DNA of 21,363 nucleotides, taken from the IMG/VR virus record IMGVR_UViG_3300022842_000074, positions 1 to 21,363 of that record; one strand, written 5' to 3'. This DNA is from a virus. The translations under genes and the position numbers were made by a program. The notes beneath the pieces were generated by a model, which ran no database searches, was not told where the DNA came from, and worked only from the letters and a program-made list of their open reading frames with translations. Positions within the stretch are counted from its first letter, which is position 1; each line of letters starts with the position of its first letter. Below are positions 1,894-15,830 of the stretch, one piece after another.

Positions 1894-4193
1894 GTTAGGC
1901 GCCCTCTGCGTAGCAAGTCTTGGACCTGCGCCACCGTTTGGCGGTTGGTTTGAATCATCGCCTGTTGAATTCTTATATCAACGTCTGCACCGCCGCCAGA
2001 TGCGTCAACGTTGTTTACTATCGTAACACTACCTCCGCCGCCCATTTTATCGTTCGGCACAACGCGGCCACTTGTACCCATGTGCAGCAACTCAGGACCG
2101 CGTTCGCCGACGAGGTATGATTCGCCGCCCCGTACCTGTCCGCCCAGTGCCCTGGCGCCTACAGCGGCACCAGACAAGGCCGCAACTGCGGTTGCCATTG
2201 GTGTTGTTGCTGCGATCGCAGCGGCAGCCGCTGCGGGTGCTAAACCCGGACCGACTATCGGTATCGCCGCTGTTGATGCAAACGCGTTAAGGCCCGCCAT
2301 CGCGACGGCTGCGGATGCGTTTAAACTCATAGCCGATGCCTCCCCTGCCTGGGCAGCCTTGCCGACAAGTTTTTGCACGACTTGGTATACAACCCACTGC
2401 GCGGCCATATCTGCCAATGCGCCGACCATTGATGCAGCCATGCCCCTGGCGAATTCTTTAAACGCATCTTTTGCCGATGAGGTACCTGTTAGGATTGACT
2501 CAAACGCGCCGGACATACTGGTGGTTAAATTTTGGGCCATGTTTGCGCCCATCATATCCATGTTGGTCAGTGCTTCGTTGGTCTGCTCTTGCCACTCGAG
2601 CAAGTATCCACTGCGGGCATCGAGATCGCGAAGGTCAGATTCGCGCTTTAATGCTGTAATGCCAGCTTGGTATTGTTCCTCGCTCAATGTTCGGTTAGCA
2701 AGCTCTAGGTCCAACCTGGTCGTTATGCGTGTTTGGCGCTCGGCAAACGCCGCCTCTTCGCTCAACCCGAGCATGGTGACTTGCCCGAGGTATCGCTCGG
2801 CGGCTACTGTTTGGGATTCATATTTCTTATTGGCCGACTCAATCGCACTAGAGTCTGCGTCCGCTTGTTTTTTCTGTGCCCGTTCCAGTGCCTTATCATC
2901 GGACTCTCGTAATCGCTCCTTTTCCTTTGCTAACTTTTCCAGTCTGGCTATTTCCGCCTCGGCATCGCCCTCAATCAAGCCGGTTAGTGATCCGCCATCC
3001 TTCAATAATCGTTGATTTTTCCTGAAAAACGCCAGGCTTTCGGCGGCGTCGCGGATAACGCCATCGTTCTGTTTCATATCGAGATGGAATTGATCCATCT
3101 CCGGTGTTAATGAACGCTGCGCCCCGGTGATTTCATCTACCGCATCGCGCAGATCGTTATATGTACCAACGTTCTTTGGGTCCAGTGATCCTGCCGCTTG
3201 AGCGAATGCCAGAGCCTCTGTACGGGTGATACCCAATGCCTCGCTAATCTCGGTCAACGCCGCCGTAACGCCGCCCACCGCGTTTGAGTATGTTTTTACA
3301 GGCGCTACAAAGTCGGAGTTATTAAATCCGCGTTGGCGGAGGCGCTCTATATCCTCGTTGAATTTGCTCAGGTCAATGCCAGTAATACCATCGACCATAT
3401 CGTCGATAGCGCCGGTTGATCCGATGATGGCTGTTCTGGCAGCGTTCATACCCGATACGATCTGCGCTGTCGCTGCGGCGCTGGATATCCTGCCCAACTT
3501 CTCTAGTTCGCGGGCAAACTCCAGGGTGCCGCCTGTGTTGCGTACAACCTGGCCCTCTAGCCTGGATAAGGCATCTTCTAGTTCTTTAGCACCCGTACCA
3601 GCGCCGCCGAATGCTGCAACTAGTGTGCCGCCAACCATCGCGCCGAGCGCAATCAATACGCCGAATACTGCTCCACCTGGTCCAAATATTGACGCGATTT
3701 GCGGCCCCTGCTGTCCGAGAATAACAAACGCGCTTGTGCCCATTTGGGCTTGCACTGCAACGTCCTGTAACTGAAAAGATAATTGTTGAGTCGCACCCTT
3801 CATGGCGCCGAAGCTGCCTTTAACAACGTTCGACTGAGCCGCTGTTTTTTTGAATGTTGTCCCAGCTGTTGTGGTTGTCTTGCCGGATCGCTCCATCGCG
3901 GCAGCCATCTTATAGGCCTCTGCCTCGGCAAATCCGATGGACTTTGCCATGTTAATGACGGTTTTGTCAGTGCGCTTGCTTGATTCCGTCAGAGTGACAA
4001 GGCGGTCGGCTGCCCGATCCATGCCTTTTGCCATCTTGTGGGCTTCAGTCTCGGCGAAGGCGATAGACTTTGCCATGTTGGTGGCAGTTGTGTCGGTGCG
4101 CTTGCTTGATTCAGTCAGGGTGTCGAGGCGTTTGGATGCAGTTGCCACACCGGTCGAATCGACCTTAATCGTTAAATTGGATACATCAGCCAT
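1890..4193 (-). CDS. Tail tape measure protein
   Basis: A 767-residue protein, the longest structural gene here, in the usual place after the tail chaperones. The N-terminal part is α-helical with two tandem 42-residue repeats (about residues 22-105). A hydrophobic Gly/Ala segment follows around residues 160-200 (QGPQIASIFGPGG onward), then long charged coiled coil (about residues 400-530). A second Ala-rich hydrophobic stretch lies near residues 610-690, and the C-terminus carries the common tape measure signature YLVGERGPELLHMG. At about 1.5 Å per residue the tail would be roughly 115 nm (inference). I chose ATG 4193 rather than 4208 because GAGG sits 7 bases upstream. The start overlaps the stop of the frameshifted chaperone product. 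Confidence 0.9.
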   Translation of the reverse strand: MADVSNLTIKVDSTGVATASKRLDTLTESSKRTDTTATNMAKSIAFAETEAHKMAKGMDRAADRLVTLTESSKRTDKTVINMAKSIGFAEAEAYKMAAAMERSGKTTTTAGTTFKKTAAQSNVVKGSFGAMKGATQQLSFQLQDVAVQAQMGTSAFVILGQQGPQIASIFGPGGAVFGVLIALGAMVGGTLVAAFGGAGTGAKELEDALSRLEGQVVRNTGGTLEFARELEKLGRISSAAATAQIVSGMNAARTAIIGSTGAIDDMVDGITGIDLSKFNEDIERLRQRGFNNSDFVAPVKTYSNAVGGVTAALTEISEALGITRTEALAFAQAAGSLDPKNVGTYNDLRDAVDEITGAQRSLTPEMDQFHLDMKQNDGVIRDAAESLAFFRKNQRLLKDGGSLTGLIEGDAEAEIARLEKLAKEKERLRESDDKALERAQKKQADADSSAIESANKKYESQTVAAERYLGQVTMLGLSEEAAFAERQTRITTRLDLELANRTLSEEQYQAGITALKRESDLRDLDARSGYLLEWQEQTNEALTNMDMMGANMAQNLTTSMSGAFESILTGTSSAKDAFKEFARGMAASMVGALADMAAQWVVYQVVQKLVGKAAQAGEASAMSLNASAAVAMAGLNAFASTAAIPIVGPGLAPAAAAAAIAATTPMATAVAALSGAAVGARALGGQVRGGESYLVGERGPELLHMGTSGRVVPNDKMGGGGSVTIVNNVDASGGGADVDIRIQQAMIQTNRQTVAQVQDLLRRGRLT
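3879..4130 (-). repeat. Two tandem 126-bp (42-residue) repeats in the tape measure gene
   Basis: Two adjacent in-phase copies (4130-4005 and 4004-3879) encode the same pattern: RLxTLTESSKRTD, then NMAKSI-x-FAE-x-EA-x-KMA. The nucleotide sequence is also conserved, for example the shared cgcttgcttgattc block spaced 126 bases apart, so the duplication is fairly recent. Repeats of this kind change tape length and therefore tail length. Confidence 0.8.
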
Positions 4194-8857: not shown

Positions 8858-9511
8858 CTAATCAGTGATGGTGCCACCGGACTTTGCGTACTCTGCCCGC
8901 TGTACTGGATTGAGGGCTTCAAATTCGCCCCTGGTTTTGATTTTTGCAGCACCGCCGCTGTTGTTTCCGCCGTTGGCACCGCCGCCAGAGGATTGATTGC
9001 CTTTTAATAGCGAGGCAAACTTTGGATTATTTTTAAACTCGGCCGCCAAATCATCAAGCGATGAAACGGTTAGTTGACCGTTACTATCGGCAACTTTAAC
9101 AGACTCATCATTAAATACTAGCCTGTTTGCTATGAATGTCGATAACAGTTCCGCGTTGGGTCCATCGGCCAGTTCGGTCGCGATACGCATCGCGGCGTTA
9201 TCGCGTTTCTCATTACCGACTGCGCCTCGCAGTAATTCCAATTCGCCTAGTGTAGTTTGGTATCGTTCCTCGGATGATTTATGCAACTGCTCGAAGTCGC
9301 CCTTTTCTTTTGCGATGCGCGATGCCTCAGCTGCAGCCTCGGTTTCCACTTTGCGGCGAGCCTCTTTTGCGGCTTTGGTTTCGCCTAACAACTCATCCAT
9401 CTTAGCCTTGATGCTGGTGGTTTCACCCGTCAGGCTTTCGACCTGGCCGGTTAGCGTTGTGTTGGCTTCTACTAACTTGGCGTTTTCGGCTTGCAATTCT
9501 TCTAATGTCAT
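8858..9511 (-). CDS. Capsid scaffolding protein
   Basis: A 217-residue protein directly upstream of the coat gene. The first 110 residues are a strongly charged coiled coil (TLEELQAENAKLVEANTTL; ETKAAKEARRKVETEAAAEA). The C-terminal part has a Gly/Asn-rich linker (about residues 175-190) and a short helix RGEFEALNPVQRAEYAKSGG, the usual ending of DUF4355-type scaffold proteins. I chose ATG 9511 because it has GTGAG about 7 bases upstream; the longer frame from 9535 has none. It would template procapsid assembly and leave before packaging. No protease gene is nearby. Confidence 0.75.
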   Translation of the reverse strand: MTLEELQAENAKLVEANTTLTGQVESLTGETTSIKAKMDELLGETKAAKEARRKVETEAAAEASRIAKEKGDFEQLHKSSEERYQTTLGELELLRGAVGNEKRDNAAMRIATELADGPNAELLSTFIANRLVFNDESVKVADSNGQLTVSSLDDLAAEFKNNPKFASLLKGNQSSGGGANGGNNSGGAAKIKTRGEFEALNPVQRAEYAKSGGTITD

Positions 9512-9550
9512 AATAATACTCACTGAGTAGGCCATCCACTGGACGGCGGT

Positions 9551-11368
9551 TTATTCGGCTGACAACGCGATGTTATTCATGCTGTCAAGTTGCGACAGGG
9601 TATATTGCTTTCCCGTCGGGTCGGTAAACCGATCAAGCGTAAAGGTGCCATCTCGGAATAGTTTAGATCGCGCAGGCCCAAGGGCTTCATCGATAAAACT
9701 CTTAGGCTGGCTGCGTAACCATGTGCTGTATCTAGTGTTGCTTGAGACAACTTCTGTGCCGTCAGCACCGATTGCTGGTCGTTGGCCTTTAACGTCTAGG
9801 CTGAACTCTTGGCGTACCACTGGTATGGTCGTTGATCGGCAGTTGTGTGTTATAATGCCATTTGCAGCAAAGCAATGATCAAACGTTTGGAGATTATAAA
9901 CATGCCCGCTAAAATCACTAACCTCGACACTGATTACATCATCCGCGAATACGCCTCCGGCGTAGGTGTTGGGGGAATCGCCGATAAACTCGGTGTCAGC
10001 CCAAGACCCATTGAGCGAGTCATTCGTGAGAATGGCGTTGTTCTTCGTGGCCGTGGTGCCCAGCAACAGGCTAGGATGGACAAAGCTACTCCCGCTGAAA
10101 AGCGTGCTCTGGTGAGAAATGCGAACATTGCCGCCAGAGGCAGCGTCCGAACATTTGCCACTAAGTGCAAGCTGGCTAAGTCGCTCGCGGGCAGAGTCGA
10201 TGTCCATCATGTTTCTGCGCTTGAGGATGCTTTCGCCGAAATGTTGGACGATGCCAATGTCACATGTACCCGCCAGGTTGCTTGCGGACCGTATCTCTGC
10301 GATTTCGTTATCGATTCCATCGCCGTGGAAATCTGGGGCGGAAATTACCACTTCTCTGGCCTTCACATCGCCAGAGCACCAGAGCGATTTAAATATATCC
10401 TCGACACGATGAAAGCCGCGATTATCATCACCGTCAATAACACCAATCCCCTTACACCGCGATTGATTAAAGCATTGGTCGCCAACATTGACGAGCTCAG
10501 CAGACATCCAACCCTTAGCGGTGAGTACCGGATGCTTTGGAGTAACGGTGATTACGTTACCGGAAACTGTCTTGATGGTGATAACTTTACCTTCAAATAC
10601 CCGTTTGCTAATAGCCGAAACACCCGCAGCGGACGTTATGAACGTGCCTGAAATCACGCAATTGTAATGCGCTGGCGGCATAGGTCCAATACCAACATCA
10701 TACTTGTTGCCGTCGCGCCCCATGCATATCATGCTGGTTAATCCGTCTAATGTGGAAACCCATTGATACTCGTTAACCAGATCACTGTTCTGTTCATATG
10801 TCGCGAGCCGCCCGGCGCTACTGGCATGGCTTAGTACCGTTGCGACTAGTGCTTGCACTTGCCTGGATATCAGCGAGTCGATAAACCCTGATACCTTTTT
10901 CACAATTGAAGTTGTGGGGCTGCCTGAAGTTGCCCCGTCCATAATAACATTCAGAATGTCGGATGCTTTTTTAGTCCCGAACGCAGACAACAATTCTGGT
11001 ATTGAAACGCCCGCCTGAACCGGTACCGCTGCGCTGATCGCGGTTGCGAGTAATGTACTGGTTGGCACAGCGAATATTGCGGATGTTCCTGCAGTTAGCA
11101 TATCCGCCGTAAACCCAGCCTCACTGATGGCGAGTTTCTCAGCCTCTGCGATCAATGCCTTTTGATCCAATATCTGTAACGTTCGCATATCGGCAATAAG
11201 CCTGGTTAGATCCTTTGATGCATATTCGTCCTGGAGTAGCCTGGCGCTCAACTGGCCTTTGTACAATCGTAGCTGTGCAGCCGCCACCTCGTTTTGTCTG
11301 CGGATGTATCGCTGTAAGAATACAGCCCTTCGCGTTGCGGCGTTGGTTAAGAATGCGCGGCTAGTCAC
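9551..11368 (-). CDS. Phage Mu F-like minor head protein interrupted by an intein
   Basis: A 605-codon gene between portal and scaffold. The start is GTG 11368 in a GTGA overlap with the portal stop, with GAGG just upstream. Without the intein the protein would be 332 residues. The N-extein (1-236) is helical and ends TCM-type: MICMGRDGNKYDVGIGPMPPAHYN. The C-extein (510-605) opens CRSTTIPV and contains ADGTEVV, RYSTWLRSQP and a DRFTDPTG end. Joined, the exteins restore PPAHYN-CRSTTIPV, the conserved MuF family motif (PPxHxNCRS). MuF proteins attach inside the capsid near the portal and are needed for head assembly or DNA delivery. Splicing is therefore probably required for a functional product. 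The intein (237-509) is described separately. Confidence 0.85.
   Translation of the reverse strand: MTSRAFLTNAATRRAVFLQRYIRRQNEVAAAQLRLYKGQLSARLLQDEYASKDLTRLIADMRTLQILDQKALIAEAEKLAISEAGFTADMLTAGTSAIFAVPTSTLLATAISAAVPVQAGVSIPELLSAFGTKKASDILNVIMDGATSGSPTTSIVKKVSGFIDSLISRQVQALVATVLSHASSAGRLATYEQNSDLVNEYQWVSTLDGLTSMICMGRDGNKYDVGIGPMPPAHYNCVISGTFITSAAGVSAISKRVFEGKVITIKTVSGNVITVTPKHPVLTAKGWMSAELVNVGDQCFNQSRCKGIGVIDGDDNRGFHRVEDIFKSLWCSGDVKAREVVISAPDFHGDGIDNEIAEIRSASNLAGTCDIGIVQHFGESILKRRNMMDIDSARERLSQLALSGKCSDAASGGNVRISHQSTLFSGSSFVHPSLLLGTTATKNNAILTNDSLNGSWADTEFIGDSPNTYAGGVFADDVISVEVSDFSGHVYNLQTFDHCFAANGIITHNCRSTTIPVVRQEFSLDVKGQRPAIGADGTEVVSSNTRYSTWLRSQPKSFIDEALGPARSKLFRDGTFTLDRFTDPTGKQYTLSQLDSMNNIALSAE
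9848..9892 (+). promoter_or_regulatory. Extended -10 promoter and ribosome binding site for the antisense endonuclease
   Basis: TGTTATAAT at 9848-9856 is a perfect extended -10 (TGnTATAAT). It is opposite the codons for I-I-T-H of the intein C-terminal splice motif. No good -35 box is seen at 17 bases, which an extended -10 can tolerate. GGAG at 9889-9892 then precedes ATG 9902. A transcript would start near 9863 and stay within the intein DNA until the stop codon. Confidence 0.5.
9902..10651 (+). CDS. Antisense-encoded Vsr/PD-(D/E)XK-like putative homing endonuclease inside the intein
   Basis: A 249-residue protein encoded on the strand opposite to the intein and wholly inside it. Residues about 10-50 look like a helix-turn-helix of resolvase type (YIIREYASGVGVGGIADKLG). 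Residues about 103-180 look like a Vsr/DUF559-type nuclease core: helix with E108 and E113, a CTRQVACGPYLCDFVID strand pair with D134, then VEIWGGNYH with E143, W145 and H150, and an ERFKYILDTMKAAIIITV helix-strand. This order is that of PD-(D/E)XK single-strand-fold nucleases, which include Vsr-like homing endonucleases known from fractured intein genes. I chose ATG 9902 because GGAG lies 9 bases upstream; a longer frame reaches GTG 9845. The stop is 9 bases inside the intein boundary. The last 50 residues lie opposite intein blocks A and B. Confidence 0.82.
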   Translation: MPAKITNLDTDYIIREYASGVGVGGIADKLGVSPRPIERVIRENGVVLRGRGAQQQARMDKATPAEKRALVRNANIAARGSVRTFATKCKLAKSLAGRVDVHHVSALEDAFAEMLDDANVTCTRQVACGPYLCDFVIDSIAVEIWGGNYHFSGLHIARAPERFKYILDTMKAAIIITVNNTNPLTPRLIKALVANIDELSRHPTLSGEYRMLWSNGDYVTGNCLDGDNFTFKYPFANSRNTRSGRYERA

Positions 11369-12810
11369 AGTACCTCGTCGATGATTTCCGCATCGCTGTC
11401 GATTTCATCATCGGTGCGATCAGCGGCAATCAGACCAGATCGGCGTAGTTGGTGCCGAAGGTCCGGCAAAGCAATAACACCTCGATCCATTAGTTGGACT
11501 GCGGCCATTACCAGTTGAGGGTCAATACTCGCCTCGTAGAATTCGCGGTTGATGATAATTTCAGGCTCGAGTGTGCCGCCCATGAAATCCATCACCCAGG
11601 TTAGGCATTGAGCGAATGCTTCTTCGACATTGCCGATGATCGCGCTAAGTTTGCTGTTCTGCCCTGCAAAGCGGATCTTTGCAGCCTCGGCTGTTTCGAC
11701 TCCACCCTTGTCCTGGATAATCCTGGTACCAATTCGGACCATCTGTTGCTCTTTGATTTCCATACCTTTTAGCGGCATTTGGTTATCTCCGGCTTGAAGC
11801 AGCATCGCACTACCCGACTCGGGCAGCAATACTGCGGCCCTGCTGCCGAACGCAACGCCGCCACTCATGTTCTGGTCAACCCATGATTGTGTTAGGCCGG
11901 AGAATACAGGCGTCGGCTGGCCGACTAGAAAACTGGATTCTTCATAGTCGGCGCTGTTGCGATAGTGCGCGATGTTGATCTCCGCGATGTCATAGAGCGG
12001 CGCCTTATCGACAACCTCATCGTTATTGACCGAGCCGACGAAGCTGAAGGGTATTAAGTTCCATGTGGAACCATCAGCTTTGCGCGGTACGATGTCGGCC
12101 GCAAAAGCACCATTCTGCTCGGTGCCTAGTAGCTCATCATTCTCATTGTAAAGCCGTTGGATATAAACGCCGTCTACCATCAGCAGTGCCCGGTGATACA
12201 TTAACTCAACAACATCAAAACCGTCTGCACTTACTTTCTCGGTCGGTTCCCGCAGAATCACCATCGACAATTGTTGCCTGCCGTTGATGGTTTCGCAGCG
12301 CCAGTTGATGATAGATTCTGCGGGATATGTCAGGACGCGGGCCTCTTGACCAGCCGTTTGCGCGGCGGTCAAACCTTCGCGCATTTGCGGGTAGTCAACC
12401 AAAAGCCCAAATCGACCGACCAGCAAAGTATCGGCTGCGATCAACTTAATTAGCTGATCGGCGCTCAACCCTTCGCCGTTTGCATTGTCTTTGATGTACT
12501 CAATACCTGGATCAACATCGAGCATTGTCTCTTTGCGGAAAACCATTCCGAGCATGCCCTCTTTGGTATGCCCTACGAAATTGACAAAAGACGCCCGCTG
12601 TCGGTATGCCTCATATCGTAGCTTATTAGCTGTGCTGCCATCCTCGGCGTTTGGTGCCGGCAAATATGCTGTGCCGGGCATTGATCCTATCTGACCTGAC
12701 GCGGATCCACGTCGCGACTTGACCGCGTTTGCCCCGTCGTCGCAGTCGCGTAGCATTTGCCACAGTGGAATGAACTTTTGGTAGTCCTTGTGTTGCGCTG
12801 ATACTGCCAT
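11365..12810 (-). CDS. Portal protein (DUF4055 family)
   Basis: A 481-residue protein between the large terminase and the MuF gene. The opening (HKDYQKFIPLWQMLRDCDDG, then LRYEAYRQRASFVNFVGHTK) and the mid-section (YDIAEINIAHYRNSADYEES; GAAKIR-like AEAAKIRFAGQNSKLS) match the DUF4055 phage portal-like family. It would form the dodecameric DNA channel at the head vertex and dock terminase and neck proteins. The C-terminus ends in an acidic tail (DRTDDEIDSDAEIIDEVL), common in this family. A GAGA-type site precedes ATG 12810. Confidence 0.85.
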   Translation of the reverse strand: MAVSAQHKDYQKFIPLWQMLRDCDDGANAVKSRRGSASGQIGSMPGTAYLPAPNAEDGSTANKLRYEAYRQRASFVNFVGHTKEGMLGMVFRKETMLDVDPGIEYIKDNANGEGLSADQLIKLIAADTLLVGRFGLLVDYPQMREGLTAAQTAGQEARVLTYPAESIINWRCETINGRQQLSMVILREPTEKVSADGFDVVELMYHRALLMVDGVYIQRLYNENDELLGTEQNGAFAADIVPRKADGSTWNLIPFSFVGSVNNDEVVDKAPLYDIAEINIAHYRNSADYEESSFLVGQPTPVFSGLTQSWVDQNMSGGVAFGSRAAVLLPESGSAMLLQAGDNQMPLKGMEIKEQQMVRIGTRIIQDKGGVETAEAAKIRFAGQNSKLSAIIGNVEEAFAQCLTWVMDFMGGTLEPEIIINREFYEASIDPQLVMAAVQLMDRGVIALPDLRHQLRRSGLIAADRTDDEIDSDAEIIDEVL

Positions 12811-14551: not shown

Positions 14552-15229
14552 TCACCCGCGTAATTTTGCTTTTCCCTTGTACATACCAGCGCCCATGTCC
14601 TCTATCTTTGAAAACGGCAACTCTGGAACAGTTAGCTTAGCCCTACACACCTTGTCAATAAAATAAACATATCGCAATTGGAAACCCGCCAACGGCACCG
14701 CGCCATTTTCGCGGGCGATAGCACTGCCAAAGCGGCCATTTTTACTGTGCTGCGGGCTATCTAATGATTTTTTCGCCATGATAGAGCCGTCTGCCATTCT
14801 AAGTATCTGCGCATTCTTCTTGATGCCTGTTAGTATAAACCCGCTGGCGCGGTATATCACGCCATCCCCACATTGTGTTGCATCACTAAAGCTGATCACC
14901 CATTTTATATGAGGATAGTGTTTTTTTATAAACCGCAACGCCACCCCAATGGCCCTACTTTCGCTGAATTTTGGTAATACATCGGAGAACGCCATTCGGT
15001 TGAGTTCAATAAAATCGTTCCAACCCGTTCCCTCTACCAAACCTGATGTTTTTCTTATATCAATACTGCAACCGAATTGCATCGCCCCCTCGAGTTTACC
15101 GTCAAGAAACACGCCAAAATGCAAGCGGCTATTATTAACAACCTTCCCGCTATAATGAATTTTCTTAACGATAGCATTTGCCGCGCCGGATTTAATCGGC
15201 GTAATGACAATATCCTTAGCACTACGCAT
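14552..15229 (-). CDS. Mom-like DNA adenine modification protein (GNAT fold)
   Basis: A 225-residue protein resembling the phage Mu Mom family, which changes adenine in DNA to a methylcarbamoyl derivative and makes phage DNA resistant to many restriction enzymes. The GNAT-like arrangement is visible: IHYSGK near residue 25, LHFGVFLDGKLEGAMQFG (36-53), ELNRMAF (75-81), a SRAIGVALRFIKKHYPHIKW helix (91-110), SFSDATQCGDGVIYRASGF (113-131) and YVYFIDK (187-193). It overlaps the ParB-like gene by 8 bases, so they are probably translated together. Assignment by pattern is good, but the chemical product made here is not known. Confidence 0.75.
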   Translation of the reverse strand: MRSAKDIVITPIKSGAANAIVKKIHYSGKVVNNSRLHFGVFLDGKLEGAMQFGCSIDIRKTSGLVEGTGWNDFIELNRMAFSDVLPKFSESRAIGVALRFIKKHYPHIKWVISFSDATQCGDGVIYRASGFILTGIKKNAQILRMADGSIMAKKSLDSPQHSKNGRFGSAIARENGAVPLAGFQLRYVYFIDKVCRAKLTVPELPFSKIEDMGAGMYKGKAKLRG

Positions 15230-15830
15230 CTCTGACGGACAACCATTCTTGACAAATCAACGTTAATGCGTTTCCGTTGGTGTTGTCATTGATGCCAGTA
15301 TCTACCAGTGGGTTTGTGCGGGCCAGCATCACCGCATCATCAATCAACGCCACCTGCTCATCATGCAGTGTGAATGTCTTTTTCTGGAATGGATCCCGCT
15401 CCCCTTCAGGTAGTTCCGGTATGCCACAATTAATATCTAGTAGCCCAGCCATAAAATCATCATCAAAGCCCAACACCTCGATATTAAAATTCTTGGTATT
15501 TAACAATTCAATTTCTGCTCGCAAGGAGTCCAAATCCCAACCAGCGTTGAGCGCCAGCTGATTGTCGGCGATGACATACGCTCGTTTTTGCTCGTCGCTC
15601 AATCCTGAAAGGGTAATGGTGGGTATTTCATCCATCGCCAGCTTTTTAGCTGCCTGGACCCTACCATGCCCGGCAATTATTGATCCGGCGTCGTCGATCA
15701 GCACCGGGTTGGTAAACCCGAACTCATTGATGCTGGCAGCGACCTGGGCAACTTGCGCGGCGCTATGGGTCCGGCTGTTGTTTGCGTATGGGATTAGGTC
15801 GCAGATGGGTTTATATACTATCGAGAGCAT
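15222..15830 (-). CDS. ParB/Srx-fold domain protein
   Basis: A 202-residue protein with a clear ParB N-terminal domain (about residues 8-95): PYANNSRTHS, INEFGFTNPVLID, AGHGR (53-57) and SDEQKRAYVIADNQLALNAG. The C-terminal part has FTLHDEQVALIDDAVMLA and NTNGNALTLICQEWL, seen in phage ParB-like proteins that lack a methylase domain. ParB/Srx-fold proteins bind nucleotides; in phages they often lie next to DNA-modifying enzymes, not partition genes. No ParA is present, so plasmid-type partition is unlikely. It is first in a two-gene unit with the Mom-like gene. A helper role in DNA modification is inference. Confidence 0.8.
   Translation of the reverse strand: MLSIVYKPICDLIPYANNSRTHSAAQVAQVAASINEFGFTNPVLIDDAGSIIAGHGRVQAAKKLAMDEIPTITLSGLSDEQKRAYVIADNQLALNAGWDLDSLRAEIELLNTKNFNIEVLGFDDDFMAGLLDINCGIPELPEGERDPFQKKTFTLHDEQVALIDDAVMLARTNPLVDTGINDNTNGNALTLICQEWLSVRDA

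Follow-up and report, generated by a model that had tools for sequence, protein, structure and literature searches.

A phage MuF intein with a putative EDxHD/Vsr-like homing nuclease encoded as a separate gene on the opposite strand

Reviews describe the nuclease of an intein as a fused, nested domain that is in frame with the rest of the polypeptide and inserted at a conserved point (PMC3943268, PMC6801210). The viral DNA analysed here (21,363 nucleotides of IMG/VR record IMGVR_UViG_3300022842_000074, hereafter the window) contains an intein without such a domain and, facing it on the other strand, a long open reading frame (ORF), which raises the question of whether an intein can carry its homing enzyme antisense to itself. 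An earlier note on this DNA had proposed that one segment serves splicing on one strand and homing on the other, to be refuted if homologous inteins showed a broken or unconstrained antisense frame or if the antisense protein lacked nuclease similarity. The proposal is supported and neither refuting outcome was met, with activity and homing remaining inferences. We regard it as highly probable that this is a homing intein with its nuclease in a gene of its own on the antisense strand, the expression, splicing, cleavage specificity and homing being inferred.

On the sense strand, the following features were delimited:

9551 to 11368, minus strand: MuF-like head morphogenesis gene with intein, 605 aa (PHROG 241 head morphogenesis, 5e-78; Phage_Mu_F, 1.3e-5, under the cutoff)
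9842 to 10660, minus strand: intein of 273 codons, from C1 to HN and followed by Cys, inserted in MuF between ...PPAHYN and CRS... (Intein_splicing, 5.5e-10 for the isolated intein; empty alleles of relatives contiguous at the homologous point)
10631 to 10660, minus strand: intein block A (CVISGTFITS), C1 invariant across 52 inteins
10520 to 10561, minus strand: intein block B (GNVITVTPKHPVLT, TxxH motif), H43 invariant and T40 nearly so in the 52 inteins
10319 to 10333, minus strand: sense linker motif DFHGD, in the codon-by-codon map the mirror of the nuclease strand IAVEI
9884 to 9937, minus strand: intein block F (...GHVYNLQT), whose mirror holds the Shine-Dalgarno site and ATG of the nuclease
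9842 to 9871, minus strand: intein block G (FAANGIITHN), whose mirror holds the extended -10 box

The intein runs from C237 to N509 of the MuF protein, followed by Cys+1, exactly where the earlier note had placed it. Pfam Intein_splicing was matched by the whole gene product (4.3e-9) and by 47 of the 52 sense inteins, in which C1, H43 and N273 are invariant, and the sequence criteria of a class 1 intein with HINT fold are met (C1, TxxH in block B, C-terminal HN, a nucleophilic +1 residue, in frame with the host). AlphaFold predicted a confident splicing domain made of approximately residues 1-67 and 232-273, with a linker predicted to be disordered between residues 126 and 231 (pLDDT <50), and known inteins were the top Foldseek matches of this model. 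No LAGLIDADG, HNH or other in-frame nuclease domain was found, Intein_splicing being the only Pfam family matched in the 52 sense inteins; the lack of LAGLIDADG and HNH motifs noticed earlier in the linker is thereby borne out, an in-frame nuclease within it is rejected for want of a Pfam match, and the canonical criterion of a homing intein, a nuclease domain in the same polypeptide, is not met.

The opposite strand carries a gene for a predicted nuclease:

9902 to 10651, plus strand: antisense nuclease gene, 249 aa and stop, with N-terminal HTH, helical region, EDxHD/Vsr-like nuclease domain (approximately residues 98-202) and a C-terminal part facing block B
10223 to 10351, plus strand: nuclease catalytic core, E108, Y131-x-x-D134, E143 and H150 (72 aligned proteins)

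As had been observed from the letters alone, this 249-residue frame lies wholly inside the 819 bases of the intein. Both frames are in register, every antisense codon being the reverse complement of one sense codon and antisense position 1 facing sense position 3, so that an antisense stop requires a sense TTA, CTA or TCA. The intein has 271 register-matched codons without any of these, the longest such run in the 14 other tested genes of the window being 134; at the rate of those genes (4.5%) a 269-codon run has P ~4e-6, and given the intein amino acids and the extein codon usage of the gene, log10 P is approximately -6 for the window alone. ORF length by itself was not relied on, since long ORFs in other registers arise by chance in the window. 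An in-frame ATG upstream (window 9875-9901, plus strand) would add nine residues to the nuclease; the start that is conserved and has a Shine-Dalgarno site lies at 9902.

A tblastn search with the antisense protein as sole query identified relatives in 104 phage records (Jerseyvirus, Kagunavirus, Pseudomonas, Vibrio, Gordonia, Edwardsiella, Haemophilus and others), and pattern scans located relatives at more than 110 viral-contig loci; 145 complete inteins formed 94 clusters at 80% identity. Scans of bacterial genomes gave no match with P0001 and a single locus, in Atlantibacter, with A3, and alignment A1 was too diverse to support a pattern scan. All the full-length nuclease relatives inspected face an intein, which almost invariably sits in a MuF-type gene; the exceptions are two cases without intein and a few loci that are truncated or frameshifted. 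At L026, L022, L036 and L037 the same intein-nuclease family occupies other points of MuF-type proteins, implying changes of target site, and in L004, L011, L013 and others intein length (~263-370 residues) seems to track the number of antisense HTH units. Deposited annotations give for Snoke the intein at most, missing the nuclease, and in vB_StyS-sam the ORF annotated instead is shorter and lies in a different plus-strand frame; none of the intein-form annotations inspected names the antisense nuclease, and both strands of seemingly nuclease-free inteins therefore deserve a search. The arrangement accounts for the long 'linkers' of MuF inteins that annotators have left blank.

Might the antisense ORF be a by-product, a conserved intein being mirrored codon for codon while codon bias keeps the frame open? 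In this register sense conservation does leak into the antisense reading, and at GC-rich loci (the L014 family) the antisense frame is open even past the intein, but a single mirror stop was seen in the core of the 94 clusters, whereas these amino acids, coded with the extein codon usage of the respective gene, would lead one to expect ~818. The frame is intact in 93 of the 94 clusters, the nuclease ORF covering a mean of 90% of the intein, and the antisense reading is the one under purifying selection in the linker, contrary to what the first refuting outcome of the earlier note required. Substitution rates at positions 1/2/3, taken over 26 independent pairs, were 0.301/0.223/0.540 in the exteins and 0.365/0.128/0.238 (sense positions) in the intein core, where sense position 3 is protected, since it serves as antisense position 1. 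In core codons, changes silent in the antisense reading alone exceeded those silent in the sense reading alone by 3 to 1 (1072 vs 358), the reverse of the exteins (260 vs 2256), and this direction was the same in 26/26 pairs. It is this position-specific pattern that refutes the by-product reading, to which we leave almost no credence; moreover, profile searches independently find a nuclease in the antisense protein and its fold is predicted with confidence, neither of which holds for the sense linker. A chance ORF through codon bias is likewise ruled out by the mirror-stop counts and the position-specific rates.

The splicing regions keep the sense pattern (N-terminal 60 codons, 261 to 110; C-terminal 30 codons, 135 to 42), so splicing is also selected. 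Between the window and L003 identity is 63% in antisense and 49% in sense, and purifying selection on the nuclease can be seen between close relatives too (e.g. L011/L025, L153/L154). The C-terminal part of the nuclease faces conserved block B and its conservation could not be assigned to one strand. These comparisons of sequences show dual coding, with very high confidence, and purifying selection acting on both readings in different parts, and the sense linker is best explained as mainly a passive mirror of the nuclease. The only cluster without an intact frame is L077; in it, as in L139 and L140, the nuclease is interrupted by an in-frame stop at sense codon 136 and the intein is still open, a candidate for a decayed stage of the homing cycle.

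What the antisense protein resembles was addressed by profile, family and fold. Its nuclease-domain profile matches the homing endonuclease I-Bth0305I in its catalytic domain (3R3P, 7.6e-7) and a DUF559-type structure (3HRL, 2.2e-6), Vsr structures coming next (0.04-0.08). Pfam REase_MTES_1575 was matched by 34 of the 72 members when these were searched one by one; many members match HTH families and one matches NUMOD1. The AlphaFold model of the antisense protein is confident (mean pLDDT 90.3) and its top PDB fold match by Foldseek is again 3R3P, though the match is modest (E 8e-3, probability 0.99, TM 0.57 on the target). In a viral library, the fold matches prominently included Vsr, DUF559 and endonuclease-like proteins. 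Thus I-Bth0305I, an EDxHD homing endonuclease, ranks first among nucleases by both profile and fold, and the HTH-like start and Vsr/PD-(D/E)XK-like core read from the sequence in the earlier note correspond to a real similarity, as the suggested profile and structure searches could have denied. Among the core residues named there, E108, D134 and E143 stood, being present in 72/72 aligned proteins, E113 proved neither invariant nor nearly so, and H150 held only in part (His in 46/72). Y131 is found in 71/72 and R162 in 66/72, and the second D of the EDxHD motif has no clear match in the aligned proteins. The strand with E143 is mirrored exactly by the strongly conserved sense motif DFHGD. We assign the protein with very high confidence, by sequence, to the EDxHD/Vsr-like nuclease family, its activity being inferred. 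Tandem HTH arrays like the nuclease N-terminus were also seen elsewhere, in a protein of a Caulobacter phage and in a homing enzyme of the GIY-YIG type (L160, 2330-3088; BcepSaruman NC_049850.1, 30014-30397).

The gene would need signals of its own, and candidates lie within the splicing motifs of the intein:

9887 to 9904, plus strand: TTGGAGATTATAAACATG, Shine-Dalgarno-like site, spacer and nuclease start codon (Shine-Dalgarno 4-mer in 61/92 start regions vs 8.4% background)
9848 to 9856, plus strand: extended -10 promoter-like TGTTATAAT upstream of the nuclease, with a weak -35 in the window

In the window, the sequence opposite block F is TTGGAG-spacer-ATG, and in most clusters the nuclease start codon lies 21 codons from the intein C-terminus, facing the His of block F (GHVYNL[QE]T). 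GGAG is still present in relatives with other sense residues (VYDASS, VYDISS), and where the block F His is missing the ATG is often shifted by a few codons. Upstream of the start, TATAAT is found opposite block G and the junction in 34/83 relatives against 9.2 expected when the same proteins are recoded, and near-perfect TTGACA-TATAAT pairs (score 11-12 of 12) occur in 14/83 against 0.8 expected with the same protein sequence. Hence many relatives appear to have a putative sigma-70-like promoter antisense in the intein, from which expression is inferred; with an extended -10 and only a poor -35, the promoter of the window itself is its least certain element.

Alleles with and without the intein, for which the earlier note had suggested a search, both exist. 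Intein-less MuF genes are contiguous exactly at the homologous point when Snoke is compared with fEg-Eco19 and vB_SenS_ER14, and dunkel with both. The nuclease also occurs apart from an intein. In Acinetobacter phage P1068 it is a free gene (WHB31326.1, hypothetical protein) on the opposite strand at the 3' end of a MuF gene without intein, and in the viral contig of L149/L156 a free nuclease gene on the opposite strand adjoins an intein-less MuF; the frame opposite the free gene is no longer open throughout, having many stops in P1068 and several in L149. These two copies sit in two separate places within the intein-borne set (unrooted tree, weak deep branches), which makes at least two separations of intein and nuclease probable, in a direction that is not proven. 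A free-standing ancestor was considered and not retained, the intein-free copies looking like two separate changes of state. Intein DNA is 95.7% identical between Kagunavirus Snoke and Jerseyvirus dunkel, and the exteins 87% and 79%, a difference compatible with horizontal transfer, though double constraint confounds the comparison; the lower divergence of inteins between phages could reflect that constraint rather than recent transfer. In L012 and L013 (Gordonia phages Angelicage and Vivi2), extein proteins are 98-99% identical but identity falls to 78.5% in the inteins, a pattern that intein replacement or much faster intein evolution would produce.

Other readings accept the antisense protein, or the mobile element, and dispute its nature. 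A phage defence, exclusion or regulatory DNA-binding protein hiding in an intein would agree with the dominance of HTH arrays among family matches, and cleavage data are lacking; homing nucleases can, besides, exclude competitors too. Against it stand the position within an intein at a conserved site, the existence of empty alleles, the invariant catalytic residues, a homing endonuclease as closest solved relative, and the two free copies that still adjoin the same MuF end, and we consider this reading improbable. Slightly less probable still is a former homing nuclease, now inactive in most members and retained for DNA binding or as an intein spacer: the EDxHD His is not universal, and the L077 cluster pairs a broken nuclease with an intact intein as a homing cycle predicts, yet the invariance of E108, D134 and E143 and purifying selection visible even between close relatives oppose it. 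The insert might instead be a group I or II RNA intron whose homing gene runs antisense, an arrangement with a precedent among the group I introns of myxomycete rDNA (PMC9548176), but this reading was excluded and its likelihood is negligible: no Rfam match was obtained in window 9500-11400 at E up to 1, the sense frame is open with intein blocks A, B, F and G and Cys+1, and AlphaFold and Foldseek give an intein fold.

The preferred reading, a homing intein with an antisense nuclease gene, can be set against known systems. Homing inteins of the LAGLIDADG/HNH type (e.g. PI-PfuI, VMA) share with it a splicing domain at a conserved host site, a nuclease in the intein DNA and empty alleles, whereas the nuclease of the MuF intein has its own gene on the opposite strand, which also faces the splicing blocks. 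The P1068 relative is of the same nuclease family and lies likewise on the opposite strand at the MuF 3' end, but its MuF has no intein and the facing frame is closed by stops. Fractured genes with split inteins, reportedly described by Dassa in 2009, are said to have a separate Vsr-like homing gene between the intein halves; they too tie a Vsr/EDxHD-type nuclease to phage intein DNA, whereas the MuF intein is contiguous and overlaps its nuclease. I-Bth0305I, listed among group I intron homing enzymes (PMC3943268), and the EDxHD and Vsr-DUF559 nucleases have the same fold by profile and structure search, the motif E and D being invariant, and N-terminal DNA-binding modules; unlike I-Bth0305I, the MuF enzyme is antisense to a protein-coding intein and its motif His is not universal. 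In I-DsqI of Didymium, a homing gene is antisense to the group I intron of myxomycete rDNA that it mobilises (PMC9548176), but there the sense strand is a ribozyme RNA and the enzyme of His-Cys type, whereas here both strands are protein-coding over ~90% of the intein and the group I ribozyme criterion in the sense RNA is not met in the Rfam search. No antisense homing gene in an intein was found in a literature search that did not cover many subscription papers and preprints, in keeping with the earlier statement that no established description was known; 'complementary strand' in two intein papers referred to contig orientation only. The architecture therefore appears new, its parts being known families.

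We propose that the ~820 bp segment would act as a homing intein coded on both strands. Read on the minus strand, the intein would be translated within the MuF head protein and presumably excise itself, splicing being inferred; read on the plus strand, a separate HTH and EDxHD/Vsr-like nuclease gene would be expressed, with a start site belonging to it and in many cases a promoter that can be recognised. The nuclease would presumably cut intein-less MuF alleles of co-infecting phages at the conserved HxNC site, and repair from the occupied copy would then spread the whole segment. Dual coding, two-part purifying selection, nuclease family, translation signals and empty alleles are read from sequence; expression, splicing, nuclease activity and cleavage specificity are inferred, and our confidence in the cutting of empty alleles and homing is high but untested. 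Against this reading stand the absence of biochemical or expression data, the incomplete conservation of the EDxHD His, the modest fold match to I-Bth0305I and the weak -35 of the window. With somewhat less assurance than for this locus, we think it likely that these elements form a widespread, unrecognised class, in which a complete putative nuclease transcription unit (promoter, ribosome site, start, ORF and stop) lies antisense within the codons of the protecting intein, splicing motifs F and G doubling as its promoter and start region. Such an arrangement would break the rule that the homing enzyme of an intein is a domain of it. It is also a well-supported and widely conserved instance of ~250 codons that encode one protein on each strand, a natural system to measure the sharing of one sequence by two reading frames, and the source of a large family of site-specific nuclease candidates whose likely targets are known.

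Two further features of the window were recorded. A 334-codon ORF facing the tape measure gene (window 2011-3015, plus strand) lies in a different register and is probably a by-product of codon usage. A Mom-family DNA modification protein (PF25680, 9e-54) overlaps the end of a ParB_N-like gene (window 14552-15229 and 15222-15830, both minus strand), suggesting hypermodified phage DNA.
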